From: Alphaproteobacteria bacterium
GTDB lineage: Bacteria > Pseudomonadota > Alphaproteobacteria > Micropepsales > Micropepsaceae
DNA length: 36,167 nt
Assembly: GCA_016792565.1 (NCBI GenBank)
Contig: JAEUMK010000017.1
Location: forward strand, 1-36,167
Direction: 5' to 3'
Position 1 is the first letter of the stretch; each line of letters begins with the position of its first letter. Below are positions 5,141-36,167 of this stretch, one piece after another. Under the pieces are notes generated by a model. That model made no database searches and was not told the DNA's origin. It was given only the letters and a program-made list of their open reading frames with translations. Made by a program: the position numbers and the translations under genes.

Positions 5141-5555
5141 TAGTTCCTGCGCAAGGCTCCGCCGGGGCCCTGGGCGGTTGCCGATCTCCCGAGCCCGGAG
5201 GTCAATTGCCGGGGCAGGCGTCGCGCGAGCGCCGCCCTGAGGTCCCCGGGGGCCGCCGTAACGCCCGGAAAACGGCCACTTTTTATTCGAACGTTGCGAT
5301 CGGGGTTTTGTTCATCTTCGCCCGACCGGCCCGCCGACCCATTCCCAGGTCCCCTGTGCGGGCAGATCGACCGCACCATGACCAAAATCATTATAGGATT
5401 ATTATCCGCTTTCGTCAAGAGGCTTTGGCGCGTCCAGCCCCTCGGCGGCGCGCATACTGCCGGACACTCCGCGAGCCGCCTGCCGCTCGCCGGACAAATC
5501 TGTCACAGTCCGATGCAAGACTGGCGTGAGAGTCTGGGTACGGGCGACAAGGGCG
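5141..5555. other. intergenic region between divergent HpaB-type gene and P-type ATPase
   Basis: This gap of about 400 bases holds the minus-strand promoter at 5390-5418 within an AT-rich patch (about 5380-5410) that stands out from its GC-rich surroundings. The 79-codon minus-strand frame (5379 to 5140) has no recognisable motif and mixed third-position composition, so I do not call it a gene. I find no FNR-type box here. Confidence 0.5.
5390..5418 (-). promoter_or_regulatory. near-consensus sigma-70 promoter on minus strand
   Basis: Read leftward, TTGACG (5418-5413), a 17-base spacer and a perfect TATAAT (5395-5390) form the best sigma-70-type promoter in the window. The spacer itself contains a dyad, GGAT-N4-ATCC (5396-5407), as an operator might. 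The predicted transcript starts near 5383 and points toward the HpaB-type gene about 350 bases away, with no convincing gene in between. A 79-codon frame starting at ATG 5379 is possible but has weak codon bias. Confidence 0.55.
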
Positions 5556-8489
5556 ATGAAGGGCAAGGTTGCAGGAGCGGGCGCGCATACAGCTCCGGCC
5601 GTGTCGATCGTCCATAGCGCCGTCGCCGGCCGCGTCCGCTTCCGGCACGAGAAGATCATCCAGCGCACGGGCGTGGCGGAGCGGGTCGCCGACGCGCTCG
5701 CGGCGAGCCCGGGCGTCAACGGCTTTGCGATCGATCGCCTGACAGGATCGGTCCTCGTCCGGTTCCGCCGCCCGGCGTCCGTGGAGGGCCTCGCCGCGAC
5801 GATCGATGCCGCGGCCGGACGCGTGCCGGCCGCGACGCCGGACGCCGCGTCCGGCCGGCCGCAGCATCTGTCCCTGGCCGCTCACAGCCTGTCCGCCCCG
5901 GCGGCGCTTCGCCAGTTGCGGACGCCGGCCGACGCCGGTCTGAGTTCGAGCGAAGCGGCGGCCCGGCTGGCCAGATACGGCCCCAACATGCTGCCCCGCA
6001 CCGAACAGCGCTCGATCGCTTCGATGCTGCTCGCCCAGGCGGCGACGCTGCCCTCCGCACTGCTGGGCGGCTCGGCGGCCCTCTCGCTCGTGACCGGCGG
6101 ACTCGTCGATGCGGCGGTCATTGCCGGTGTGGTTGCCATCAACGCCGTGATCGCCACCGCCAGCGAGTCCCGCGCCGAGCGCATCATCGCCGGGCTTCTG
6201 GATCAGCCGCCGCAACCCGTCGCGGTCGTGCGCGACGGCAGAAGGCTGCTCCTGGACCCCGCCGAGCTGGTGCCCGGGGATCTGATCCTGCTGGAGCCGG
6301 GCGGCATCGTGCCCGCCGACGCCCGCCTGATCTCGGCCGATCAACTGACCATGAGCGAGTCGGCGCTTACCGGAGAGGCGCTGCCGGTGCTGAAAGACTG
6401 GTCCGCTCGCCTTCCCGAGGACCAACCGCTCGCCGACCGGATCAACATGGCCTATCGCGGAACCTCCGTAACCGGCGGTTATGGCCGGGCGATCGTGATT
6501 GCGACGGGCAAGCACACCGAGATCGGCCGCGTGCACAGCCTGCTGGGTACGGTACGGCCGCCGAAAACCGAAATCGAGCGTGAGCTTGGCGGTGTCGAGC
6601 GGGAACTGATCGCCGTCAACGGCCTGGTCTGCGGCGGCATGGTGTTGCTGGGCCTTCTACGCGGACAGCCGCTCGTGCCGCTGATACGCAGCGCCATATC
6701 GCTGGCCGTCGCCGCCATACCCGAGGGCCTGCCAGCCGTCGCGACCACGACGCTGGCGCTGGGCGTGGAGGCGATGAAGGAACGCGATGTCCTGGTGCGC
6801 AGGCTCGATGCCGTCGAGTCGCTTGGCGCCGTCGATACGGTCAGCCTCGACAAGACCGGAACGCTCACCGAGAACCGCATGCAGATCACGGCCGCGCTCG
6901 CAGGCCTGGAAGCCGTCGCCTTTCGCAATGGACGAGCGAAGACCGGGGCTACGGGACTGCGACCGCTGTTTGAGGTCATGGCGCTTTGCAGCGAGGCGGA
7001 ACTGAGGGCGGCCGGCGGTCGCACTTCGATCTCCGGAAGCCCGACAGAGGCGGCCCTCGTCCAGGGCGCCATGGATTTCGGGATCGATGTCCGTGCCTTG
7101 CGAAGCGGCCGGCCGCAACGCGCCATGCTGCGGCGGGCCGAGGGCCGCAAGCGCATGACGACGCTGCACGGCGGACCTGAGCCGATGGTCATGGTGAAGG
7201 GAGACCCCGTCGAGGTTCTTTCGCTGTGCGACCAAGTTGCGGCCGAGGGCAGGACGCGCGCCCTGACCGCCGCCGATCGCGCCGCGATCCTGAAGGCCAA
7301 CGCGAAGATGGCGGGCGGCGCGCTGCGCGTGCTCGCCGCGGCGCACAAGCCCGGCGGCGGCGTGACCGATCGCGGCGGGTTCGTATGGCTCGGCCTTGCG
7401 GGGCTCACCAACCCGGTCCGGGCCAGCGTCGTGCCCTCGCTGAGGCAGCTGCATGCCGCAGGCGTCCGCACCGTGATGATCACCGGCGACCAGAGCGCGA
7501 CGGCGCTGGCCATTGCGCGACAGATCGGGCTTTCCGGCAGCGACGAGCTGCGTGCGCTCGACGCCGGACAGATGTCGGGACTGCCGCTCGATCTTCTGGA
7601 AGGACTGGTCCGGGACCTTCACGTCTTTGCGCGTGTGAACCCTTCCGAAAAGCTGAACATCGTGCGCGCGCTGCAGGCCGGCGGCCACATGGTCGCCATG
7701 ACAGGCGACGGAATCAACGACGGTCCAGCCCTTCGCGCCGCCGACGTCGGCATCGCAATGGGCGCAGAAGGCACCGACGTAGCCCGGAACGTCGCCGACA
7801 TCGTGCTGGGGTCGGACGATCTGGGCGGAGTGATCGACGCCCTCAGACTCGGCCGCTCGACCTATGACAACATCCGCAAGGTCCTGCGCTATCTGGTGGC
7901 CACCAATGCCTCGGAGACGATGACGATGGTGGCGGCTTCGCTTCTCGGCCAAGCCGAGCCGCTGACGCCGCTCCAGCTTCTGTGGCTGAATCTGGTGACG
8001 GACGTGTTCCCGGCGATCGCTCTGGGGCTTGAGCCGCCCGAGACCGACGTTCTCGAGCGTCCCCCTCACGACCCCAAGGCCCACATCATGCAGGCGCGCG
8101 ACTACCGCCGGGTTCTGTCGGAAGGAGCGGTGATCAGCCTTGCGGCCTTCGCCGGCCGGACGCTCGGCACGCCCGGCTCGCCCACCGCCTTTCACAGCCT
8201 GACGATGGCCCAGTTGCTGCACGCTTTCGCGTCGCGCTCGGAGACGCACGGACTGGCCGAGATCGCAACCCGCCCTGCCGGGCCATGGCTCTATGGCAGC
8301 GTCGCCCTCTCGGCCGCGCTTCAGGCCGGAGCCCAGCTTCTGCCCCCCTTGCGCCGGCTGCTGAACCTCGCTCCGATGAGCGGACGGGATGCAGCCAGAG
8401 CAGCGCTTTCGGCCGGAGGCGCAACGATCGCGAACGAGATTCTCGGCCGCCTATGGCGGCAGACGCCAAGCGGGAGACGACCGGCATGA
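5556..8489 (+). CDS. SERCA-like P-type cation ATPase with N-terminal HMA-like domain
   Basis: This is an inner-membrane P2-type ATPase of 977 residues from ATG 5556 (a GTG at 5526 is an alternative start). Residues about 17-80 form an HMA-like alpha/beta domain (AVAGRVRFR ... LTGSVLVRF) without a CxxC metal pair. The core has LTGE (271-274, actuator), VAAIPEGLP in M4 (PEGLP 389-393), the phosphorylated Asp432 in DKTGT, KGDP (548-551), TGDQ, and TGDGIND (716-722). Transport-site residues match SERCA site II: Glu in PEGLP, Asn784 and Glu787 (NASE) in M5, and Asn812, Thr815 and Asp816 (NLVTD) in M6. Ca2+ or a similar divalent ion is therefore the likely substrate. The C-terminal membrane region after M6 looks short. 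The stop overlaps the next ATG as ATGA, coupling it to the SAM synthetase. Confidence 0.87.
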   Translation: MKGKVAGAGAHTAPAVSIVHSAVAGRVRFRHEKIIQRTGVAERVADALAASPGVNGFAIDRLTGSVLVRFRRPASVEGLAATIDAAAGRVPAATPDAASGRPQHLSLAAHSLSAPAALRQLRTPADAGLSSSEAAARLARYGPNMLPRTEQRSIASMLLAQAATLPSALLGGSAALSLVTGGLVDAAVIAGVVAINAVIATASESRAERIIAGLLDQPPQPVAVVRDGRRLLLDPAELVPGDLILLEPGGIVPADARLISADQLTMSESALTGEALPVLKDWSARLPEDQPLADRINMAYRGTSVTGGYGRAIVIATGKHTEIGRVHSLLGTVRPPKTEIERELGGVERELIAVNGLVCGGMVLLGLLRGQPLVPLIRSAISLAVAAIPEGLPAVATTTLALGVEAMKERDVLVRRLDAVESLGAVDTVSLDKTGTLTENRMQITAALAGLEAVAFRNGRAKTGATGLRPLFEVMALCSEAELRAAGGRTSISGSPTEAALVQGAMDFGIDVRALRSGRPQRAMLRRAEGRKRMTTLHGGPEPMVMVKGDPVEVLSLCDQVAAEGRTRALTAADRAAILKANAKMAGGALRVLAAAHKPGGGVTDRGGFVWLGLAGLTNPVRASVVPSLRQLHAAGVRTVMITGDQSATALAIARQIGLSGSDELRALDAGQMSGLPLDLLEGLVRDLHVFARVNPSEKLNIVRALQAGGHMVAMTGDGINDGPALRAADVGIAMGAEGTDVARNVADIVLGSDDLGGVIDALRLGRSTYDNIRKVLRYLVATNASETMTMVAASLLGQAEPLTPLQLLWLNLVTDVFPAIALGLEPPETDVLERPPHDPKAHIMQARDYRRVLSEGAVISLAAFAGRTLGTPGSPTAFHSLTMAQLLHAFASRSETHGLAEIATRPAGPWLYGSVALSAALQAGAQLLPPLRRLLNLAPMSGRDAARAALSAGGATIANEILGRLWRQTPSGRRPA

Positions 8490-9631
8490 GCGCGGAGACG
8501 ATCTTCACCTCCGAATCGGTCACGATGGGCCATCCCGACAAGCTGTGCGACCTCATCTCGGACGCCTGCATCGACGCCGTCCTGAGCGAGGACCCGGCCG
8601 CGCGGATCGCGGCGGAGTGCGCGATCGCTTCCGGCGTCGTCTTTCTCGCCGTACGCGTTGCGAGCGAGAGCAATTGCGACTTCGCCGGCATCGCGCGACG
8701 CGCGATCGGCGCCGTCGGGTACGACCGCGGCAGCTTCGATGCGAGGAAATGCTCGGTCCTGGTCCAGCTGCAAGAACTGCCGTTGAGCCAACGGCTGATC
8801 CTGGCCGACGATGCGCCGTCGAGCGAGCAGGTCAATGCCTTCGGCTATGCGACCGACGAGACCCCTGCATTGATGCCTCTGCCTCTGGCGCTGGCACACC
8901 TCGTCGCGCGGCGGCTGGACGAGGCGCGATCCGGCGGACTGCATTGGCTCTCGCCCGATGCCAAGACGCAGGCCGCGATACGCTATCGCAGCGGCCGCCC
9001 CGTCGGGGTCGCATCGGTCGCGATTTCCGCCGGAGTCCTGGAAACGGCCCCGGGGAAGGATGAGGCTCGCGCCGCACTGCTTGCGATCCTGAGAGAGGCG
9101 GCTCGCGAAACCGGGATCGAACTGGACGAACGGACGCTGATCTCCATCAACATCGATACCGACGGCGCCGTCGGCGGCCCCGCCCGCCACGCCGGCCTCA
9201 CCGGCCGGAAGACCGGGATCGACAGCTATGGCGAGATCGCCAGGCACAGCGGCGCAGCGTTGTCGGGCAAGGATCCCTCGCGCATCGATCGCATAGGCGC
9301 CTATGCGATGCGGCAGGCCGCCGTGTCGCTCGTCGCCGCTGGGCTTGCGAAGCGCTGCGAGGTTCACGCCGCCTACGCGATCGGCCGGGCGGAGCCGCTG
9401 GACGTCTCCGTCGAAACCTTCGGTACGGGCGTTTCAGACGACTCAGAGCTGGCGGAACGCATCCGCCACGCCATGGACTTCCGGCCGGGCGCCATCGGGC
9501 GGCAGCTGGGCCTGTGCGGCCTGCCACAGTCGAGGCGGGAAGCAGGGTTCTACCGGCGGCTGGCGACCTATGGCCATTTCGGCCGGCCGGACATCGATAC
9601 GCCCTGGGACAAGCCCGTGCCGCTCGGCTGA
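8486..9631 (+). CDS. metK: divergent S-adenosylmethionine synthetase (methionine adenosyltransferase) paralogue
   Basis: The 381-residue product aligns end to end with MetK: FTSESVTMGHPDK at the N-terminus (GHPDK 15-19), AFGYATDET, GLTGRK, SGKDPSRIDR and YGHFGR near the C-terminus. Several otherwise near-invariant segments are altered. The GGEITT segment reads AVRVAS. The GDQG of the active-site loop reads SEQV, and the loop is shorter. GGPxGDxGLTGRK reads GGPARHAGLTGRK. The second Lys of KDPSK is Arg. It is probably not the housekeeping enzyme: either a specialised methionine adenosyltransferase or an ATP/phosphate-handling derivative. It starts inside the ATPase stop codon, so the two are co-expressed. 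I recall similar MetK/ATPase pairs near PHA and low-oxygen genes in other proteobacteria, but could not check this. Confidence 0.85.
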   Translation: MSAETIFTSESVTMGHPDKLCDLISDACIDAVLSEDPAARIAAECAIASGVVFLAVRVASESNCDFAGIARRAIGAVGYDRGSFDARKCSVLVQLQELPLSQRLILADDAPSSEQVNAFGYATDETPALMPLPLALAHLVARRLDEARSGGLHWLSPDAKTQAAIRYRSGRPVGVASVAISAGVLETAPGKDEARAALLAILREAARETGIELDERTLISINIDTDGAVGGPARHAGLTGRKTGIDSYGEIARHSGAALSGKDPSRIDRIGAYAMRQAAVSLVAAGLAKRCEVHAAYAIGRAEPLDVSVETFGTGVSDDSELAERIRHAMDFRPGAIGRQLGLCGLPQSRREAGFYRRLATYGHFGRPDIDTPWDKPVPLG

Positions 9632-10039
9632 CTACTTGCGCGCCGGCAGCCCCGCGATGCCCGCCGCATACCACAGCAGCGTCAGCGCCGGCGGGAGCAC
9701 CCTTCCGCGCGCCGTCTGCATCAACGCCAGGCCTGTCATCGCAGCGGCGACAGCGCCCTCGATCTGCGGCAGGGAAAGCGGGCCGGGCTCCGGCGCGCCC
9801 TGCCCCGCGCCGACCTTGAAGAGACCCACGCATCTTTCGAGGACCTCGGCGATCGACGCCTCGTGAAGGACGATCATGCTGCCGGTCAAAGGCCGGGCGC
9901 GAATCTCCACAACGCCCTCCAGGCCGGCAAGCCGGTTCGCCAGACGCTCGAAGAAATCGCGATCACCGAGACGCCCGGCGAATCTGAACCTCGTCCGCCC
10001 GCTTGAGGTATGGACGATTTCGGCTGTGGGAAGCTCCAC
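9632..10039 (-). CDS. stand-alone HMA-like domain protein with hydrophobic C-terminus
   Basis: This protein of about 135 residues has an N-terminal half (about 5-70) resembling the extension of the neighbouring ATPase. Both share an IVH...GR.RFR strand and an LTGS..V strand spaced as in ferredoxin-like HMA folds, and neither has a CxxC motif. The C-terminal half (about 85-130) is hydrophobic with short helices, suggesting membrane association. A GTG at 10039 or the TTG just before it is the likely start, with AAGAAGG upstream inside the preceding gene. It is the last gene of the leftward PHA operon. Its stop codon directly abuts the stop of the SAM synthetase with no base between. It may act in trans with the ATPase; that is inference. 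Confidence 0.7.
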   Translation of the reverse strand: MELPTAEIVHTSSGRTRFRFAGRLGDRDFFERLANRLAGLEGVVEIRARPLTGSMIVLHEASIAEVLERCVGLFKVGAGQGAPEPGPLSLPQIEGAVAAAMTGLALMQTARGRVLPPALTLLWYAAGIAGLPARK

Positions 10040-10042
10040 CAA

Positions 10043-20638: not shown

Positions 20639-21688
20639 ATGAAGGGGCCGGCGATCTTTCTGGCGCAGTACGCGGGCGACGCGCCACCGTTCAACAGCCT
20701 GGGAGCCATCGCGCGTTGGGCCGGCGATCTCGGCTTCAAAGGCGTTCAGATTCCGACCTGGGACCGGCGGCTGTTCGACCTGAAGCTGGCCGCCGAAAGC
20801 GATGCCTATTGCGACGAGGTCAAGGGGGTTCTGGCCGAGGCCGGACTTGAGGTCTCGGAGCTGTCGACCCACACCCAGGGCCAGATGGTGGCGGTGCATC
20901 CGGCCTATGACGAGATGTTCGATGGCGCCGCGCCGACCAGGGTGCGCGGCAATCCGGCAGCGCGGCAGGCCTGGGCGGTGGAGCAGGTTCTGCTGGGCGC
21001 GAAGGCGTCCCGGCGGATGGGACTGGATGCCCATGTCACCTTCTCCGGCTCTCTCGCCTGGCCCTATCTCTACCCCTATCCGCAGCGGCCGGCCGGGCTG
21101 ATCGAGGCGGCGTTTGACGAACTGGCCCGGCGCTGGCGGCCGATCCTCGACGCCTTCGACGAGGCCGGGGTCGATCTCTGCTACGAGATCCACCCGAGCG
21201 AGGACCTGTTCGACGGCACGACCGTGGAGATGTTCTGGGAGCGCGTGGACCACCATCCCCGCGCCTGCCTGCTCTACGATCCGAGCCACTTCCTGCTGCA
21301 GCAGCTGGATTATCTCGCCTATATCGACCTCTACCACGAGCGCATCCGGATGTTTCACGTCAAGGACGCGGAGTTCCGGCCGACCGGGCGACAGGGCGTC
21401 TATAGCGGCTATGCGCCCTGGAAGGAGCGGGCCGGGCGGTTCCGCTCGCTCGGCGACGGCCAGATCGACTTCAAGGCCATCTTCTCGAAGTTCGCCCAGT
21501 ACGGCTATCGCGGCTGGGCGGTGCTGGAGTGGGAATGCGCGCTGAAGGATCCGGTCGATGGAGCGCGCGAGGGCGCGGCCTTCATCCGCGATCACATCAT
21601 CCAGGTGACCGGCAAGAACTTCGACGATTTCGTGGCCACCGGCGTGGACGCGGCGGCCAATCGCAGACTGCTGGGCCTCGATCGCTGA
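20639..21688 (+). CDS. TIM-barrel sugar phosphate isomerase/epimerase-like protein
   Basis: A 349-residue xylose-isomerase-like TIM barrel (AP endonuclease family 2 fold). Four metal-ligand strands are visible in order: Glu in CYEIHPSEDLF (about 182), Asp in LLYDPSHF (about 216), His in MFHVKDAEF (about 240) and Glu in AVLEWECAL (about 298). The family includes isomerases, epimerases, dehydratases and the lyase subunits that split 3-keto-glycosides. It is first in a five-gene operon, has GGGAGGA before ATG, and ends one base before the Gfo/Idh/MocA start. No signal peptide is seen, so it is cytoplasmic. Confidence 0.82.
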   Translation: MKGPAIFLAQYAGDAPPFNSLGAIARWAGDLGFKGVQIPTWDRRLFDLKLAAESDAYCDEVKGVLAEAGLEVSELSTHTQGQMVAVHPAYDEMFDGAAPTRVRGNPAARQAWAVEQVLLGAKASRRMGLDAHVTFSGSLAWPYLYPYPQRPAGLIEAAFDELARRWRPILDAFDEAGVDLCYEIHPSEDLFDGTTVEMFWERVDHHPRACLLYDPSHFLLQQLDYLAYIDLYHERIRMFHVKDAEFRPTGRQGVYSGYAPWKERAGRFRSLGDGQIDFKAIFSKFAQYGYRGWAVLEWECALKDPVDGAREGAAFIRDHIIQVTGKNFDDFVATGVDAAANRRLLGLDR

Positions 21689-21689
21689 G

Positions 21690-22838
21690 ATGCGCCTGTC
21701 TCTTGGGATGATCGGCGGCGGCGAGGGCGCCTTCATCGGGGCGGTGCACCGCATGGCCGCGCGGCTGGACGGCCGCTGGTCCCTCGTCGCCGGAGCGTTC
21801 AGCGGCGACGCCGGTCGCTCGCGCGCCTTCGGACGGACGCTCGGCCTCGGCGAGGAGCGCTGCTACGGCGACTGGCGGGCGATGGCGCAGACCGAAGCGG
21901 CGCGGTCCGACCGGATCGACGCGGTGGCCATCGTCACGCCCAACCATCTGCACCACGGACCGGCGCGGGCCTTCCTCGATGCCGGGATCGCGGTGATCTG
22001 CGACAAGCCCCTGACAACCTGTCTCGCGGACGCGCTGGACCTCGCGGCGGCGGCGGCGCGGACCGGCACGCCGTTCGTGCTGACCCACAATTACAGCGGC
22101 TATCCGATGGTCCGGCAGATGCGGGCCATGGTGGCGGCGGGAGCGCTGGGCGCGATCCGGGTGGTCCAGGCCGAGTATGCGCAGGACTGGCTGGCGAGGC
22201 CGCTGCCCGGCAACAAGCAGGCCGACTGGCGCGGCGATCCGGACCGGGCCGGACCCGGCGGGGCGCTGGGCGACATCGCGACCCACGCCTATCACCTGGC
22301 GACCTTCGTCCTCGGCGCGCCTGCGGATCAGGTCAGCGCCGAGACCTCGCGGTTCGTCGAGGGCCGGCGGCTCGACGACGACGTGCAGCTTCGTCTGCGC
22401 TGGCGCAATGGGGCGCGGGGGCAGCTCTGGGCCAGCCAGGTGGCGGTCGGGGCGGCGAACGGACTGAGATTGCGGGTCTATGGCGCGAACGGCGGCCTGG
22501 AGTGGGCGCAGGAAGATCCGGACATGCTGCGCCACACGCCGCTGGGCGAGCCGCCACGCATCCTGCGGCGCGGCGGCCCTGGCCTGTCGGCAGCGGCGCA
22601 GGCGGCGACGCGCATCCCGGCAGGGCATCCCGAAGGCTATCTTGAAGGCTTCGCGCAGATCTACGCCGACGCGGCGGACCTCGTTTCCGCGCACCGGACC
22701 GGGCAGACGCCGCCGCCGACGGTCCTGGACCTGCCCGGCGTGAGCGCCGGCGTCGAGGGGGTGCGGTTCATCGAGGCGGCGGTGCGCAGCGCTGCGGCGG
22801 ACGGAAGCTGGACGGCGCTGTGCGAGACGGGGACGTGA
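21690..22838 (+). CDS. Gfo/Idh/MocA-family NAD(P)-dependent sugar oxidoreductase
   Basis: A 382-residue dehydrogenase. The N-terminal Rossmann motif reads [15 protein letters not shown] (6-20). The cofactor/active-site segment [11 protein letters not shown] (about 82-92) and the catalytic-Lys strand CDKPLT (about 109-114) are intact, followed by the substrate domain with [13 protein letters not shown] (His triad region, about 190-205). It would oxidise or reduce a ring hydroxyl of a sugar, cyclitol or their keto forms. It overlaps the next gene as TGATG, showing coupling. Confidence 0.87.
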
Positions 22839-23617
22839 TGCGGCAGAGCTTCGCCTGGTGGTCCTTCACGTTGGGCCGTGAGGTCGAGCCCGCCACGCTG
22901 CTGCGCGAAGCGGCGGCGGCCGGGGCGCAAGGCGTGGAGATGCTGCCCGAGGCGCACTGGCCGGTGGCCAGGGACGCGGGGCTGGCGCTGATCACCCTGA
23001 CGGGCCACACCCTGGAGCGCGGGTTCAACGATCCGGCCCTGCACGCTGGCCTCGCCGACGAGGTGCGGCGGAACATCGACGCCGCCGCGCGCGGCGGGGT
23101 TGAGGCGGTCATCGTCTTTTCGGGCAACCGCATCGGCGACGGCGCAGATGCGCCGGCCATCGCGGCCTGTATCGAGGGCCTGGCGCCCGTCGCCGCCCAT
23201 GCCGAGCAGGCCGGCGTGCGGCTGCTGCTGGAGTTGCTCAACAGCAAGGTCGATCATCCCGGCCACCAGTGCGACCGCACGGCGTTCGGGGCAGCGGTGG
23301 TCCGGGGCGTCGACTCGCCGGCCCTGCGACTGCTCTACGACGGCTATCACATGCAGCTGATGGAGGGCGATCTGAGCCGGACGATCCGGGCGCATTTCGA
23401 CCTGATCGGCCACATCCACACGGCCGGGGCACCTGGCCGGCGCGATCTGGACGACCGCCAGGAGATCAACTGGCGGGCCATCGCCGGTCTTCTGCGCCAT
23501 CTCGGATACCGGGGATGGGTGGGGCATGAGTTCGTGCCGCGCGGCGATCCGGTCGCGGCGCTTCGGGCAGCTCTCTCCCAGTTCGACGGATCGGCGCCAT
23601 TGGAGAGGACAGCGTGA
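22838..23617 (+). CDS. hydroxypyruvate isomerase-like TIM-barrel protein
   Basis: The 259-residue product resembles Hyi/OtnI isomerases. The metal and substrate segments LLELLNSKVDHPG, LLYDGYHMQLMEGDL, GHIHTAGAPGRRD and GYRGWVGHEF are in the family order. The last has Gly-His-Glu where Hyi enzymes have Gly-Cys-Glu. ATG 22838 overlaps the preceding stop, and its own stop overlaps the ATG of the GMC gene. In this operon it more likely acts on a keto-sugar or aldose product than on hydroxypyruvate itself. That is inference from context. Confidence 0.82.
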   Translation: MRQSFAWWSFTLGREVEPATLLREAAAAGAQGVEMLPEAHWPVARDAGLALITLTGHTLERGFNDPALHAGLADEVRRNIDAAARGGVEAVIVFSGNRIGDGADAPAIAACIEGLAPVAAHAEQAGVRLLLELLNSKVDHPGHQCDRTAFGAAVVRGVDSPALRLLYDGYHMQLMEGDLSRTIRAHFDLIGHIHTAGAPGRRDLDDRQEINWRAIAGLLRHLGYRGWVGHEFVPRGDPVAALRAALSQFDGSAPLERTA

Positions 23618-25305
23618 TGTTCGATGCCATCGTCGTCGGCTCCGGAATCAGCGGCGGCTGGGTCGCCAAGGAGCTCTGCGAGCGGGGATTGAAGGTCCTG
23701 ATGCTCGAGCGCGGCCCCAACGTCCCGCATGGGTCCGGCTACAGCTACGATGCGGCTAGCAAGCTTCGGCGTCGTGACGACCAGATCCCTCAGGACGAGA
23801 AGGATCTGCACTATCCCTATCACGTCGGGGTTTCCTACGCCCTGTTCAACTCCAACAAGGCCTTCTGGGCCAGCGATCACGACCATCCGTACGAGACCGC
23901 GCCCGGCAAGCCCTATCGCTGGATCCGGGGCTATCAACTGGGCGGACGATCATTGACCTGGGGGCGGCAGTCCTATCGATGGGGCCCGCAAGACTTTCTC
24001 TCGAACCTCCAGGACGGTCACGGCGTCGACTGGCCGATCCGCTACGAGGACCTCGAACCCTGGTACGACCACGTCGAGGCCTTCGCCGGGATCAGCGGCG
24101 ACTACGACGGCCTCGAACAGCTGCCGGACGGAGACTTCCTGCCGGCCTTTTCGTTCAATGACGTCGAGCTGGCCGCCAAGGCCAGGATCGAGGCCGATTT
24201 CCCGACCCGCCGCATGATCATGGGGCGGACCGCCAACCTCAGCCGCGTCGCCAAGGCCCAGATGGATATGGGCCGGAAGCGATGCGAACAACATGTCCGC
24301 TGCCATCACGGCTGTCCTCTGGGCAGCTATTTCTCGACCCAGGCTGCGACCTTGCCGGCGGCCCTCAATACCGGCAACCTGACCGTCCTGACCGACCGGG
24401 TCGTGGTCAGCGTCGTTCACGACCCGGCCACCGGCCGCGCCACCGGCGTGCGGACCGTCAACCGGACGGACAAGGGCGGCGAGACCTTCGAGGCGCGGAT
24501 GGTCTTCCTCAACGCCTCGGCCATCAACACCGCGGTCCTGCTGCTGAACTCGAAGTCGGACGTGTTCCCGCGGGGCCTCGCCAACGGCAGCGACCAGGTC
24601 GGCCGAAACCTGATGGACCACGTCAGCAGCAAGCCGGTCGTCGGCAAGATGCCAGGCTTCGCCGGCGTGTACGACCAGCGCGACCGGCCGACCGGGGTCT
24701 ACATCCCGCGCTACGCCAACTTGACCGAGCGGGAGCAACCTTACCTGCGCGGCTTCGGCATGCAGGGCGGTGCGGCCCGCTCGCGGCGGGCGGAAAGCTT
24801 CGCCCAGGGCGTCGGCGGCGGCGACGACGAAGGGCTGCACGGCTGGCACTTCTCGCTCCTCCCCTTCGGCGAGGTGCTGCCCGACCCGGAAAACCGCGTG
24901 ACCCTGTCAGCCATCCGGACGGACAGCTGGGGCATGCCGGTGCCGATCATCGAGGCGACCCACGGCCCCAACGAATATGCGATGATGCGCGCGGCGGCGC
25001 GGGATGCGGCGGACATGCTGAGAGCTGCCGGCTGCGTCGATATCACCCCCTGGGAGGAAGCCGCCGAACAGCTGACGCCGCCCGGCGACCGCATCCACGA
25101 GATGGGCACGGCGCGGATGGGCCGCGATCCGGCGACATCGGTGCTGGACGGCTGGGGGCGGGCGCACGAGGTGCCCAACCTGTTCGTCTCGGACGGCGCG
25201 GTGATGACTTCCAGCGCCTCGATGAACCCATCGCTGACCTACATGGCGATCGCCGCGCGAACCGCGAACCACGCCGCGGATCTTCTGCAACAGGGAGGCC
25301 TGTAA
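23617..25305 (+). CDS. GMC flavoprotein dehydrogenase with three-Cys Fe-S motif (glucoside 3-dehydrogenase-like)
   Basis: A 562-residue FAD-dependent GMC oxidoreductase. It has the dinucleotide motif VVGSGISGG (about 6-14), the flavin segment GGRSLTWG (109-116), and near the C-terminus HEMGTARMG and NPSLTY with the active-site His/Asn region. Cys223, Cys229 and Cys233 form C-x5-C-x3-C, the spacing that binds the 3Fe-4S cluster in FAD glucose dehydrogenase catalytic subunits. Oxidation of a sugar ring hydroxyl (often C3) with electrons passed to a carrier is therefore likely. No small Tat-secreted gamma subunit and no cytochrome c gene is next to it, and no signal peptide is visible. ATG 23617 overlaps the Hyi-like stop. 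Confidence 0.88.
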   Translation: MFDAIVVGSGISGGWVAKELCERGLKVLMLERGPNVPHGSGYSYDAASKLRRRDDQIPQDEKDLHYPYHVGVSYALFNSNKAFWASDHDHPYETAPGKPYRWIRGYQLGGRSLTWGRQSYRWGPQDFLSNLQDGHGVDWPIRYEDLEPWYDHVEAFAGISGDYDGLEQLPDGDFLPAFSFNDVELAAKARIEADFPTRRMIMGRTANLSRVAKAQMDMGRKRCEQHVRCHHGCPLGSYFSTQAATLPAALNTGNLTVLTDRVVVSVVHDPATGRATGVRTVNRTDKGGETFEARMVFLNASAINTAVLLLNSKSDVFPRGLANGSDQVGRNLMDHVSSKPVVGKMPGFAGVYDQRDRPTGVYIPRYANLTEREQPYLRGFGMQGGAARSRRAESFAQGVGGGDDEGLHGWHFSLLPFGEVLPDPENRVTLSAIRTDSWGMPVPIIEATHGPNEYAMMRAAARDAADMLRAAGCVDITPWEEAAEQLTPPGDRIHEMGTARMGRDPATSVLDGWGRAHEVPNLFVSDGAVMTSSASMNPSLTYMAIAARTANHAADLLQQGGL

Positions 25306-31069: not shown

Positions 31070-33226
31070 TCACGCCTCGCAGAACGGTCGAATGGCATTG
31101 GCAGCCGCCGCACCGCGCGCCCAGGGAATGTCTGCCCCGTCGCTGACCCTGTAATAGACCATGCCGTTCGGCAGCAGCGCGACGAGGATGCCGCCATAGC
31201 CGGCGAGAAAGGGTATCCATACTTCGCCCTTGCAGCCGAGAGCGACGGCGGCGTTCCACGCCCACATGCCATGCTGATAGCGCAGGTCTTCGGATCCCGC
31301 CGGAAGACCCGGAGCAGAGGGATCGCGCTGCAGCGCCGCAGACAACATCCCGGGGTCGATCAATGTCTGGCCGCCCGCGACTCCATCGCCACGCCCAAGA
31401 AAGAGGCCGAGCCGGGCGAAATCGTCGCGCTGGAAAGTGATGCCCCAGCCCGTGAAGGGCTGCCGCACCTCGTCATATGTGCGCCGAGTGACGAGAGCCG
31501 CGGGGCTGATGCCGACAGCGTTCCAGACCGGCGCGACGAGCGTGTCAAACATGTCGGTTGCCGCGCCCCACCGCGCGCGCGCGAACGACGCCATTGCGGT
31601 CCCAAGAATGTAGGTGTCGGTCGTGTGGTAGACCCACTTCGTCCCTGGCGCGGCACGGCGCTTGTGCATCGCACATGCCTGCGAGATTTTCGCGGCGTGG
31701 CTGAGCTCGGTCACGAAGCGCGTGAAGTCCGCCGCATCCTCATCGACCTGGTTTGCATCCGAGGTGTAGTTGCCTGTTGCCATATCGAGGGCATTGGCAA
31801 AGGTCACGTCGGCCCAATTGCCGTCAGCCAGGCAGTCGGGCACGTAGTCGGCGACGATCGACCTCGACGCGCCCGGATAGAGCCGCTCCAGCCGCATGAG
31901 GCCAATGCCTGCGACCAGCGTCTTGGCGGTGGAGTAGGACGGCAGGCTGATTTCGGCGCAGAAAGGATAGGCGCCATACCTTGTGCCGCAACCGCCGTCA
32001 TAGAGAACGCCTTCAAACACGACGCCGAAGGTCGTCATATTCCCCGGACTGACTTCGGACGGCGACCCGAAGCCTGAGGCGGCCGGATAGCGCGCCACGA
32101 GGTCCGAGATCGGCTTGACAGGCAGCCGTCTTGCGCGAAGCGCCCGGTCGTCCGCGGCAATTTCCGTCGCCCGCTCCACAGCGCCGGGCCGATAGGCGAC
32201 CGCCGCGTCGCCCCACATGTCGAACTTGAAGTAGAAACAGGTCTCGCTGCCGATCTGAATCGCCGCGCGGGAGGTTTCGCCGGTCGCCTTGAACAGAAAG
32301 GTCAGCACCCCGTTGTGCAGGCAGTTGGCGTTCTTCTCCTGCAGCGAAAAGGGGATGGAGGCACGCGTGAAGCCCTCATCGCCCGGTTCGTCCCAGACGG
32401 CGCCGGGCTCAAGCACAAATTCCCAGTACTCGTGCGCGCTGGCGATGGGCCCCCGCTCTGCCGGGATCAGCCGGGAGCCATCCTGTAGGAAGGCGAAGGA
32501 GAACGGCGGAAGAGTCTTCCAGCCGGCGGTTGCCGGGGAATCATAGTCAAAGGCATCGGCAAGCAGGCGGGTGGAAACACGGACATCGCCAAGAGTGACA
32601 ATGCCCTGAAGCGTGGCCGCCGGCACTAGAGCGGCGTCCGGCGGCGCGAAGGCGGCGGTGTCGACCGGCGCGCCGAACGGCCTTGCCAACGCATCTCGCG
32701 TGAGCAGGCGCCGGCCGCTGGCTGCCTCTTTCCTGCTTGGAGTACCCGTCAGGCGGATCGCATCGGCCCAACAGGTCGCCTCTGCGCTTCTGGCGCGCAC
32801 CGACAGCCGGATCAGAGCGCGCGGCAGATTGTCGATCTGCGAAACCGCGAGCTCGCCCCGATGCATCGTGACGCTGTCGTCCTGACCGTCGGTCAGGCTG
32901 AGAAACGGTATCCAGCTCGCGCCATCGTCTGCGGATATCTCCGCAATGCAGACATCGCCGGGCGACAGGTTCATCGCCGCGAAGGCCGCCGACGCCGTGA
33001 TGCTGACATAGCCTTCGGTGGTGAGGGCGAGAACGCCTGTCCCGTTTGCGCTGAGGCGCAGGGAAACGTTGCCCTCATAAGTCGTCAGGCGGAGATCGCC
33101 CCCGCTGCCTCCCCAGCCATCGGCTTCGCCGTCCTGGAAGTCGTCCTCGAAGATGATCTCAGCCGGCGCCGCGGCTGCGGTCGACACTGCGCTTGCGAAG
33201 AAAAAGGAGAGAATTGCGCGCTTCAT
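31070..33226 (-). CDS. exported beta-lactamase-fold serine hydrolase with N-terminal beta-sandwich
   Basis: A 718-residue protein with a signal peptide (1-20, cleaved near AAAA-PAE). Residues about 22-165 look like a lectin-like beta-sandwich (IIFEDDFQDGEADGW start). Residues about 370-715 form a class C beta-lactamase/esterase-type domain. The SxxK nucleophile motif is Ser432-Thr-Ala-Lys435 in SLPSYSTAKT, and the second motif is Tyr533-His-Thr (WVYHTTDTYILG), where many relatives have Tyr-x-Asn. NylB-type 6-aminohexanoate-oligomer hydrolases, EstB esterases and D-peptidases share this fold. Several Cys suggest disulfides and periplasmic or surface location. Its ATG overlaps the upstream stop as ATGA. 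Cleaving an amide or ester whose product feeds GabT/GabD is inference. Confidence 0.83.
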   Translation of the reverse strand: MKRAILSFFFASAVSTAAAAPAEIIFEDDFQDGEADGWGGSGGDLRLTTYEGNVSLRLSANGTGVLALTTEGYVSITASAAFAAMNLSPGDVCIAEISADDGASWIPFLSLTDGQDDSVTMHRGELAVSQIDNLPRALIRLSVRARSAEATCWADAIRLTGTPSRKEAASGRRLLTRDALARPFGAPVDTAAFAPPDAALVPAATLQGIVTLGDVRVSTRLLADAFDYDSPATAGWKTLPPFSFAFLQDGSRLIPAERGPIASAHEYWEFVLEPGAVWDEPGDEGFTRASIPFSLQEKNANCLHNGVLTFLFKATGETSRAAIQIGSETCFYFKFDMWGDAAVAYRPGAVERATEIAADDRALRARRLPVKPISDLVARYPAASGFGSPSEVSPGNMTTFGVVFEGVLYDGGCGTRYGAYPFCAEISLPSYSTAKTLVAGIGLMRLERLYPGASRSIVADYVPDCLADGNWADVTFANALDMATGNYTSDANQVDEDAADFTRFVTELSHAAKISQACAMHKRRAAPGTKWVYHTTDTYILGTAMASFARARWGAATDMFDTLVAPVWNAVGISPAALVTRRTYDEVRQPFTGWGITFQRDDFARLGLFLGRGDGVAGGQTLIDPGMLSAALQRDPSAPGLPAGSEDLRYQHGMWAWNAAVALGCKGEVWIPFLAGYGGILVALLPNGMVYYRVSDGADIPWARGAAAANAIRPFCEA

Positions 33227-34860
33227 GCCAGCGCGTCCTCAGGCACGCCCGCTTTGGCCAGCGCGGCGCGCAGGGGATCGAGGGAGGCTCCGAGCCGGCG
33301 CCAGCGGCCGACCGCCTCACGATAGATCGGCCGCCGGACCTGGACGGCGCTGGCCGTCGAAACCGGAGCCTGGTTCTGGTGAAAATCGAGACAGGCATCC
33401 TGCCAGTCGAGACCGCAGGCAGCGACCAGACGGCGGGTCTCGCCCTCATGATTCTCGACCAGGTCCTCGTATCTGACTTCGACCAACCGCCCTGGCAGCA
33501 CGCGCCTCCAATGCTCCATCAACCGGCGATAGGCGGCGTAGTAAGCGGCGAGATCGCCGAAATCGTATGAGAACGGATAGCCCATCCGGAAAAGGGTCTT
33601 GAACATGGCAAAGCAGCTGTCCATCGGGTGGCGGCTGAGGTGGACGATCCGCGCCGATGGCAATGCCCGCGCGATGAGCCCGATGTAGAGAAAGTTCAGC
33701 GGCGTCTTGTCGATCAGGTAGGGCGCCTCGACCCCATAGGCACGCGTTCGGGCGCGATAGTCCGCGCCGATGGCCGCAGGGTCTGCGGCCGCCGCGCGCC
33801 GGACGACTTCACCCTTGTCCGCCGCCTGGCCCGCCCCCCTCACTACGGCGAGCGCCAGGTCATTGACTTCACCGAGGCTGGCGACCGCGCTGTGCGAACT
33901 CAGGATGCGGTCGACCAGAGTCGTTCCGCTGCGCGGCAATCCCAGCACAAAGACCGGCCCCTCCGGCGCGAGTTCCGCCTCCACCCCCGCCAGAAGTCCG
34001 GCATCGAACGCGGCGGCGATGTCGCGCATCGTCGCCACGTCGTCTTCGACACGATAAGCGAGCAGGGAACGCCGCCGCGCCGCGCCGCGCTGCAGGGCCG
34101 CAAGCGCGCCGGCATCGTCGCCCAGATCCTCAAGCTCTTTCGCCAGCGCATAGCAGAGCGCCGTCTCGCCACCTGGATGGCGCAGAGGGCGCGCCAGCAT
34201 GGCCTCGATCGACGCGACGTGGTTGCGGGTCGGCGTCTGCTTGCGCAGCGTCGCGCGATTGTACCAGGCGTCGTAGTCGTCCGGAGCGAGCGCCAGGGCC
34301 GTGTCCAGCGCATCCTCGGCCTCTCCAAGACGCCCGATCGCCAGCGCGGCGGTCGAGAGGTTGTAGAGCGCGCGCGGGTCGCCGGGCATGAGATCCCTCG
34401 CGCGGCGATAGCACCGATAGGCCTGAATCGAGGCACCGAACTGGGTGTAGGCCTCGCCGATCCGCTGAAGCGCTTGCGGGTCGGAGGCCACATCGCACTC
34501 CAGCGCGGCAAGAATGGGTGCGGCGCTGCCGGCGCGGCCATCGAGAATGTCGGCCTCCGCCTGAAGCAGCCGGGCAAAGACATGCCCAGGATCGCAAGCC
34601 TGCGCCCGTTCGGCCGCAAGGCGCATGCCGGCCAGGTCCCCGCGGTCCTGCCGCAACCGCGCAACCAACAGCCAGACATCGACGGCACCGGCGTCGGCTG
34701 CCAGATGCGCGCGGCACAGCGCCTCCGCCTCTTCGAAGCGCCGGGCCCGGCGCAAGGCGGCAGCGCGCTCCAGTATCGCTCTGCGCTGACCTGCCACGAT
34801 GCTCACCACACCCGCTAGCGACCCATCCCGCCCGACCAAACGCTTCCGGGGAGTGGGCAT
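33223..34860 (-). CDS. TPR-sulfotransferase fusion protein
   Basis: A 545-residue protein from ATG 34860. Residues about 25-260 are tetratricopeptide-like helical repeats (ARRFEEAEALCRAHLAA..., GEAEDALDTALALAPDD). The C-terminal part is a sulfotransferase domain with the PAPS 5'-phosphosulfate loop GLPRSGTT (307-314) and the 3'-phosphate segment IVHLSRHPMDSCFAMFK. It would transfer sulfate from PAPS to an unknown acceptor. This fusion is commonly found next to TonB-dependent receptors in sphingomonads and Caulobacter-like bacteria, where its role is not established. It starts 14 bases after the receptor stop and overlaps the serine hydrolase start. Confidence 0.83.
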   Translation of the reverse strand: MPTPRKRLVGRDGSLAGVVSIVAGQRRAILERAAALRRARRFEEAEALCRAHLAADAGAVDVWLLVARLRQDRGDLAGMRLAAERAQACDPGHVFARLLQAEADILDGRAGSAAPILAALECDVASDPQALQRIGEAYTQFGASIQAYRCYRRARDLMPGDPRALYNLSTAALAIGRLGEAEDALDTALALAPDDYDAWYNRATLRKQTPTRNHVASIEAMLARPLRHPGGETALCYALAKELEDLGDDAGALAALQRGAARRRSLLAYRVEDDVATMRDIAAAFDAGLLAGVEAELAPEGPVFVLGLPRSGTTLVDRILSSHSAVASLGEVNDLALAVVRGAGQAADKGEVVRRAAAADPAAIGADYRARTRAYGVEAPYLIDKTPLNFLYIGLIARALPSARIVHLSRHPMDSCFAMFKTLFRMGYPFSYDFGDLAAYYAAYRRLMEHWRRVLPGRLVEVRYEDLVENHEGETRRLVAACGLDWQDACLDFHQNQAPVSTASAVQVRRPIYREAVGRWRRLGASLDPLRAALAKAGVPEDALA

Positions 34861-34874
34861 CCGAACCCTGCCGA

Positions 34875-36167
34875 TCAGTAGCGGTAGCTGACGGAAAGGC
34901 CCAGCGTCCGCGGCAGAGCGACCAGTTCCTTGGAGCCGTTGCCGAAATATCCGTTCGCGGGGGATGTCCCCATGTATTGCTCGGTATAGATGCCGGTCAC
35001 GCCGTCGGCGTCGAAGACGTTTTTCACGAAGAACGTCATGTCCCAATTCTCGCCGGCCAGCGTGGCCGACGCGTTCCAGAGCTGGAACCCCGACAGGGAG
35101 CGGCGGAACAGGGCCGACCGGCTGATCGCGTTTTCAGTTCTGGACTGGTAGTAGCCGTCCGCCCGGGCGGTCAGGGAAAGCCCGTCGCCAACCTGCCACG
35201 TGTAGTCGCCGGCGATCGTGAAGGAATGCTCCGGAACACCCGGGATTCGGTCGCCCTTGTTGGCGATCGGCGTGACGGCATTGATGGGCGAGAAGAAGTC
35301 TTCGCCCAACTCGGCATTGTTGTAGGCATAGCCCACACTGTAGTTGAAGCCCTCGCCGAGGGTTCCTGCAAGCATCAGCTCAAGGCCGTACACTCTCACG
35401 TCGCCGGCATTCTGGACGACGAAGAAGCCCCAGTTCGGCGTTGCCGTGTTCAGCTGGGCGTCTTCCCAGTCGACGTAAAACAGCGCGGCGGTATAAGTGA
35501 TTCCGCCGGCGCGGCCCTTCACGCCCGCCTCGTAGTTGGTGACCCGGTCCGGCTCGTAGACCTGCCAGCGCGGGTCCTCGGCGAAGAACCCCGCGAGCGG
35601 CACCGCGTTCGAGCCTCCGCGCCGGAATCCCTGCGAGACCGTACCGTAGACGAGATTGTCCTCGGCAAACGTCCAAGAGGCATTCAGCTTGAACAGCGTT
35701 CCCGTGTCGCTCGACTCGAAGAAGGCGTTCGTGGGGTTCGATAGCGATGTATAGAGCGGTATGTCGATCAGCGTTGTATTGTCTGACTCGTTGTCGAAGT
35801 AGCGAAGCCCGCCGGTGATCTGGAGCGTGTCGGTGACGTGCCAGGTCAACTCGCCGTAGAGCGCCCGCTCGGTGAAGTTCTCGTCGCGGCGATAGATGAA
35901 GTCCTGGTCGCCCGAAACGGCGCTGGTCGCGAAGGGAAGGGCCAAATCCCACCAGCGCTTGAAGCCGCGCAGGAAGCTGTCCTGCGAGGCGAACCGGCTC
36001 TGCTGCTGGTAGTAGGCACCGAGGATATAGTCGATCGTCGTGCCGGGCTTCGAGACCAGCCGCAACTCCTGGATGAACGCCTCGTCGGCATAGGTGCGCA
36101 CTGCCGAGGCCATCGGCCTGGGATAGTTGTAGTAGAAGGACAGGAAGCCGGATTGAGCGTAGAAGCC
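34875..36167 (-). CDS. TonB-dependent outer-membrane receptor (C-terminal part, cut by window edge)
   Basis: The minus frame is open through the right edge, so the N-terminal plug domain and signal peptide are missing. The visible part of about 430 residues is the beta-barrel, with alternating strands and aromatic girdles (LRYFDNESDN, GGSNAVPLAGFF, TNYEAGVKG, FFVKNVFD) and the typical last strand LSVSYRY ending in an aromatic residue. An internal Met near 36113 is not a real start. As the first visible gene of the operon it would import a substrate too large or scarce for porins, the presumed target of the exported hydrolase. Confidence 0.88.
   Translation of the reverse strand, partial: GFYAQSGFLSFYYNYPRPMASAVRTYADEAFIQELRLVSKPGTTIDYILGAYYQQQSRFASQDSFLRGFKRWWDLALPFATSAVSGDQDFIYRRDENFTERALYGELTWHVTDTLQITGGLRYFDNESDNTTLIDIPLYTSLSNPTNAFFESSDTGTLFKLNASWTFAEDNLVYGTVSQGFRRGGSNAVPLAGFFAEDPRWQVYEPDRVTNYEAGVKGRAGGITYTAALFYVDWEDAQLNTATPNWGFFVVQNAGDVRVYGLELMLAGTLGEGFNYSVGYAYNNAELGEDFFSPINAVTPIANKGDRIPGVPEHSFTIAGDYTWQVGDGLSLTARADGYYQSRTENAISRSALFRRSLSGFQLWNASATLAGENWDMTFFVKNVFDADGVTGIYTEQYMGTSPANGYFGNGSKELVALPRTLGLSVSYRY

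Follow-up and report, generated by a model that had tools for sequence, protein, structure and literature searches.

The window analysed here is a stretch of 36,167 nucleotides from an alphaproteobacterium of the Micropepsaceae (contig JAEUMK010000017.1, assembly GCA_016792565.1). It carries a paralogue of the S-adenosylmethionine (SAM) synthetase MetK, which we call MetK2, directly behind a gene for a Ca2+-type P-type ATPase (Table 1). The stop codon of this pump and the start codon of MetK2 share the four bases ATGA. The MetK2 reading frame runs from an ATG to a stop codon that ends on its last tabulated base; a longer in-frame alternative from 8285 is listed, and the start adopted agrees with those of aligned relatives. 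The pump start is uncertain, being 5526 in the list of open reading frames and 5544 in the searches. A small HMA_2-like gene and a further small gene follow on the opposite strand. The Pfam scan of the latter's product was empty, and relatives in its BLAST cluster match DUF5132.

Table 1. Positions of the genes and features discussed. Unprefixed positions refer to the window; L numbers denote extracted loci, G and C numbers genomes and their contigs.
Feature	Position	Strand	Basis or remark
MetK2, MetK paralogue, 381 amino acids	8486..9631	+	open reading frame, Pfam, alignment
P-type ATPase, Ca2+ (PMR1/SERCA-like) type, with N-terminal HMA_2-like domain	5526..8489	+	profile and structure matches
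Small HMA_2-like protein	9632..10042	-	convergent with MetK2
Small protein with N-terminal hydrophobic segment	10043..10375	-	in BLAST cluster with DUF5132 proteins of related loci
Apparent sugar or polyol catabolic cluster	20639-25302
Sulfotransferase domain fused to TPR repeats	33226-35046
Canonical metK of the window's genome	G000:C26:17306-18388		38% identity to MetK2
CorA cluster members	L076:6012-6977, L083:11210-12196		Pfam confirmed for L076
MgtE cluster members	L074:12219-13229, L061:2718-3689, L077:2605-3579		Pfam confirmed for L074
Glycine/alanine-rich repeat proteins	L075:4376-5014, L079:2-832, L062:9007-9813		8 others
ArsA-type ATPase with HSP20-like domain	L088:4068-5324		upstream of pump and MetK2
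Divergent MetK-like protein (Terriglobia)	L091:9989-11209		beside its pump
HMA_2 pump with MetK2 not adjacent	G487:C3:236315-239170		L190 / L173, with flanks

Few known enzymes are as conserved as MetK, which is regarded as having one task. MetK2 keeps its architecture, with all three S-AdoMet_synt Pfam domains (PF00438, PF02772 and PF02773; E 6e-47, 9.5e-30 and 5.2e-21). An AlphaFold2 model built on an alignment of 26 MetK2 rows has a mean predicted local distance difference test score (pLDDT) of 86.3 and a predicted template modelling score (pTM) of 0.88. Its top matches among solved structures are all methionine adenosyltransferases (MATs), with Z of 42-44 and 35-41% identity in the rows shown, including 8jzg_B at Z 44.1 over 365 residues. 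The model is of one chain, while MAT sites sit at the dimer interface, and placement of residues rests on the alignment.

A preliminary description of this locus had noted that GHPDK, GLTGRK, KDPS and YGHFGR persist in MetK2, that GGEITT, GDQG and GGPxGD have become AVRVAS, SEQV and GGPARH, and that KDPSK has become KDPSR; the alignment bears out each of these observations. It had also reported a shortened active-site loop. This holds for the window copy, whose loop is about 4 residues shorter than in E. coli by hand count on the alignment, but not for its relatives: the window loop is 9 columns shorter than in most of them, where it is present but rewritten. As the loop in relatives is at least as long as normal, the suggestion that the enzyme works without a mobile loop does not describe a feature of the family. 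A check for another metK in the genome, proposed at the same time, returned a copy with all canonical residues. Since this ordinary metK sits on another contig of the same genome, MetK2 is a true paralogue, and the possibility that it is the genome's only metK is ruled out.

Methionine and phosphate sites of MetK2

Residues were counted in the 26 MetK2 rows aligned with 70 canonical sequences, using E. coli numbering with Met as 1; the canonical sequences do not vary at any of the active-site positions counted. At Glu56, Gln99, Asp239 and Lys270, which are E, Q, D and K in 70/70 canonical sequences, the window MetK2 has R, L, H and R. Across the family, Asp239 is replaced by His, Lys270 by Arg and Phe263 by Leu in 26/26. 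Glu56 has become Arg in 22 rows, Gln in 3 and His in 1; Gln99 is retained in 2 of the 26 and Ser100 in 1; Asp119 is replaced by His (11), Asn (6), Gln (3) or Glu (3) and kept in 3; and position 231 is still Phe in 12. Leu336, Ile351 and Thr355 in the C-terminal part are changed as well. His15, Asp17, Glu43, Arg245, Lys246 and Lys266 are retained in 26/26, Asp272 in 24 (Glu in the other 2) and Lys166 in 17, and the window copy has all eight. Asp164, a ribose contact, is Asp in 26 of 27 rows, a set that includes one duplicate (L112). That the triphosphate, Mg2+ and K+ residues have been kept and the methionine site lost is well supported.

The excerpts of PMC1282579 and PMC3853416 used here give Glu55, Gln98, Asp238 and Lys269 (the present numbering minus 1) as the methionine contacts of MAT; Asp238 binds the ribose as well, and Phe230 stacks against the adenine. 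A list of 12 MAT catalytic residues, conserved across 2963 sequences according to the excerpt of PMC7271947, was mapped onto our alignment by position, human and E. coli numbering being matched through residue and offset. The 4 methionine-contacting residues on this list are replaced in MetK2 and the other 8 are kept in the majority (Fisher p = 0.002). In the portion of PMC6850014 available, the human patient variants Asp258Gly and Lys289Asn, equivalent to Asp239 and Lys270, lower SAM formation and spare phosphatase activity, and gating-loop swaps affect tripolyphosphate hydrolysis little but reduce SAM formation more than 200-fold. MetK2 is changed at these sites in combination, and one would naturally predict that it has lost SAM synthesis while its phosphate site survives.

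Profile scores do not reveal this difference. Against TIGR01034, the NCBI metK equivalog with a cut-off of 309.4 bits, the window MetK2 scores 302.7, below the cut-off, and the canonical copy in its genome 465. Seven of eight MetK2 relatives pass at 322-384 and L074 fails (307.1), giving a pass rate of 7/9 with the window copy included; the divergent L091 protein scores 386. The cut-off does not separate MetK2 from canonical MetK. Since most MetK2 proteins tested pass it, as does L091, public annotation is prone to label them as methionine adenosyltransferases, and metabolic reconstructions may be misled, above all for two metagenome-assembled genomes (MAGs) in which no other metK appears. These scores and MAGs, together with the full fold and domains, would suit a second SAM synthetase of the usual kind whose substitutions are tolerated. 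We consider that reading very improbable, because the replaced methionine residues are invariant in canonical sequences, SAM formation is impaired in the human variants of two such residues, and a canonical metK is present in the window's genome and in 14 of 16 named genomes.

The retention of His15, the acid proposed for C5'-O5' cleavage in the excerpt of PMC1282579, and of Asp164 raises a different alternative: MetK2 might still cleave ATP at C5' and pass the adenosyl group to an anionic nucleophile that lacks an amino group like that of methionine and is bound by R56, H239 and R270; the pump system would then use or transport the product. The family shares a specific change of the pocket (D239H and K270R in 26/26), which suits a new specificity better than a loss. 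However, the adenosine contacts at Phe231 and Ser100 are relaxed, Asp239 is also the ribose-holding residue in the sources cited above, and no recurring biosynthetic partner gene lies beside MetK2 in the 24 loci compared. We regard such an adenosyltransferase as rather unlikely.

A family spread across several phyla

In a class sample of 385 genomes, 4 have a gene of this type, the window's included, and the other three encode proteins of 50-53% identity; within one family they occur in 6/31 genomes and within one order in 5/61. The 96 genomes of the window's own order yielded the window MetK2 and one 42% match that proved canonical. L073, a 42% candidate from a genome with 8% contamination (G534), was rejected because all canonical residues are present. 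For named genomes, at least 80 loci matched, and 30 of the 80 listed were extracted. Among the 30, 16 have altered residues (L074-L086, L088, L089 and L112), 13 are canonical and L091 is divergent. The 16 altered loci come from Methylocystis, Desulfobacterota, Myxococcota, Nitrospirota, Cyanobacteria and Gammaproteobacteria. The L112 protein is 100% identical to that of L068 and was included in the 27-row count and excluded from the 26-row set; L091 was likewise left out of the 26 rows, and L072, a contig-end fragment, entered neither the alignment nor the tree.

In a tree of 51 proteins, the 26 MetK2 rows fall on one side of a branch with support 100/99, forming a clade of Alpha- and Gammaproteobacteria, Desulfobacterota, Myxococcota, Nitrospirota and Cyanobacteria among the sequences sampled. 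The window MetK2 lies on a long branch (1.01), with Methylocystis L074 as its nearest relative. These family members and the tree rule out the window protein as an isolated oddity: the MetK2 changes are a family trait and not the quirk of one gene.

The L091 protein, from Terriglobia, attaches between the canonical MetK and MetK2 groups. It retains Asp239 but has N56, R99, H119, L263 and H270, and is an intermediate between the two.

The R, H and R replacements recur throughout the family and so do not represent decay. The long branch and shortened loop of the window copy might by themselves suggest a decaying duplicate without function, yet a clade conserved over several phyla, with invariant D239H and K270R, an intact phosphate site and retention together with a pump, leaves that explanation scarcely credible. 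Among the 16 named genomes examined, that of L091 included, 14 hold a second match of 55-75% identity to E. coli MetK.

Association with a Ca2+-type pump

The pump lies immediately upstream of MetK2, on the same strand, in 22/23 distinct loci. Neighbouring genes were called by a simple script in 24 loci (23 distinct) and clustered by BLAST linkage, a few members being scanned with Pfam. A P-type ATPase of the same cluster is present in 24/24 loci, an HMA_2-type protein in 18/24 and a DUF5132-type protein in 14/24. In 19 loci, counting L112, the gap between pump and MetK2 lies between -53 and +80 bases, and in 9 of these it is exactly -4. The exception in gene order is Calothrix, in which the ATPase beside MetK2 is a partial call without HMA_2 and the genome's HMA_2 pump is encoded elsewhere on that contig, at a distance of about 190 kb. 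The L086 genome, a Methylumidiphilus MAG, has two MetK2-like matches (G573:C22, C23), each adjoining its own pump match.

We searched the window pump in the 31 and 61 genomes of the family and order above. Scores split into at least 609 bits in 12 genomes and at most 532 bits in the rest (n = 92), and the 12 high-scoring matches reach the N-terminal domain, except that of G414, which starts near a contig end. Both genes occur in 11 genomes, the pump only in one (G487), MetK2 only in none and neither in 80 (Fisher p = 2e-13, a value that overstates independence because the 92 genomes are relatives). In a class sample of 142 genomes searched at E 1e-150, four matches pass: the window's, two in genomes with MetK2 and one more, which scores 514 bits and starts at residue 116. 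The tie between MetK2 and an HMA_2-bearing Ca2+-type pump, by gene order and by co-occurrence across genomes, is well supported. The G487 locus (L190 / L173) contains an HMA_2 pump, two HMA_2-like proteins and a DUF5132-like protein.

The best solved match of the window pump is the Listeria Ca2+-ATPase lmo0841 (6zhf; E 1.9e-131 over residues 118-949). In a 23-row alignment the window pump has DKTGT, PEGLP in M4, Asn/Glu in M5 (N..E) and Asn with Asp in M6 (N..TD). The N-terminal HMA_2-like stretch scores E 1.2e-4, below the Pfam cut-off, and its GRxR motif is conserved in the rows that reach that far. The pump falls under the cut-off of every listed Ca2+-ATPase equivalog model.

Mg2+ channel genes of the MgtE or CorA clusters lie near MetK2 in 5/23 distinct loci, a count without background control, and hint at divalent-cation homeostasis. 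They could accompany a pseudoenzyme: MetK2 might be a non-catalytic nucleotide, Mg2+ or polyphosphate sensor that binds MgATP or inorganic tripolyphosphate and either clamps the pump or sets it free. Translational coupling points to matched amounts of the two proteins, and ligand-phosphate and metal residues are kept where acceptor residues are lost. A sensor would not obviously require His15 and nearly every phosphate-handling residue to be so strictly kept, however, and we judge it unlikely.

Other neighbours were noted. Glycine/alanine-rich amphipathic repeat proteins of about 210-300 amino acids stand beside the pump in 11/24 loci, and the single member scanned had no Pfam match. A link to calcyanin was considered as well; none of the 12 papers listed for it contained the word, and the idea does not enter the evidence. 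In L088 an ArsA-type ATPase with an HSP20-like domain is encoded upstream of the pump and MetK2. Elsewhere in the window, two xylose-isomerase-like TIM barrels, a GFO/IDH/MocA oxidoreductase and a GMC oxidoreductase adjoin an MFS transporter in what looks like a sugar or polyol catabolic cluster, and a sulfotransferase domain is fused to TPR repeats.

A proposed role and known systems

With its methionine residues lost, its triphosphate residues kept and its inheritance linked to the pump, MetK2 is probably not a maker of SAM. Our preferred reading, which we hold tentatively and at somewhat under even confidence, is that MetK2 serves the pump as a dedicated partner, binding or hydrolysing ATP or tripolyphosphate. 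In this proposal, a MAT-fold protein would have been turned into a partner of an HMA_2-bearing, Ca2+-type P-type ATPase and would no longer make SAM. The old active site, now more cationic, would bind ATP or an inorganic (tri)phosphate chain with Mg2+, and the protein would hydrolyse its ligand or change shape. Together with the pump and the accompanying HMA_2/DUF5132 proteins it would act at the membrane, where it may control or support divalent-cation transport. Of the three options in the preliminary description (another substrate, catalysis without the mobile loop, or an ATP/tripolyphosphate-handling partner of the ATPase), the last fits best, given the kept phosphate residues and strong pump pairing; its chemistry is a prediction from sequence. 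We more hesitantly entertain a fuller version, in which a divalent-cation pump has taken on the MAT fold as a subunit or effector whose cationic site, no longer recognising methionine, senses or burns ATP, tripolyphosphate or longer polyphosphate. Transport through a membrane, or into a store of metal phosphate, would then follow the phosphate energy of the cell.

Several findings weigh against a dedicated phosphate-handling partner. A pure phosphatase would not obviously need His15 or Asp164. Residues 243-260 of the model, an active-site stretch, have pLDDT below 50. The pump of G487, without MetK2 beside it, indicates that the pump can occur alone, and Ca2+ (or Mn2+) is no more than a candidate cargo. 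The correlation between pump and MetK2 distance matrices (r = 0.905, 17 loci, with no unlinked control gene), which speaks for the partnership, also reflects shared descent and fits joint movement or plain common descent. Finally, L078 and L080, both MAGs, show a MetK2 match and no canonical metK, which may reflect missing contigs or real dependence on MetK2.

If the proposal is correct, MetK2 would represent a new kind of ion-pump control, spread across several phyla, and the clade offers a specific lead to new regulation of P-type ATPases. Searches of the open-licence PMC literature returned no title or abstract opening on a MetK-P-ATPase pair and no paper with the term 'DUF5132'; both are weak negatives.

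The window pump resembles Listeria lmo0841 in its core and M4-M6 motifs, but has an extra HMA_2-like domain at its N terminus and is paired with MetK2. Ferrosomes offer a looser parallel, with FezB, which we take to be a P-type ATPase. The excerpt of PMC10979944 describes the ferrosome (Fez) system as a putative iron transporter with small membrane partners that stores metal, a likeness by description only that serves as a lead and not as evidence. Mycobacterial PacL1-CtpC (DUF1490/DUF6110), as presented in the excerpt of PMC9374683, combines a P-type ATPase with a small one-helix membrane protein bearing a charged cytoplasmic tail, and the DUF5132-type protein of MetK2 loci resembles the small PacL1-type protein. 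Unlike in that system, the pump here is Ca2+-type rather than P1B, and the HMA_2 proteins and MetK2 are extra; the main text of PMC9374683 lacks the terms 'synthetase', 'HMA' and 'DUF5132'.

Compared with MetK/MAT itself (TIGR01034), MetK2 shares the three-domain fold and His15, Asp17, Glu43, Arg245, Lys246, Lys266 and Asp272, but has Glu56, Gln99, Asp239 and Lys270 replaced, the gating loop rewritten, the C-terminal part altered and an ion pump as its partner. To our knowledge, the MAT fold is known only for making SAM. A clade that has dropped the methionine site, kept the phosphate site and travels with a pump represents a natural separation of the two activities of MAT.

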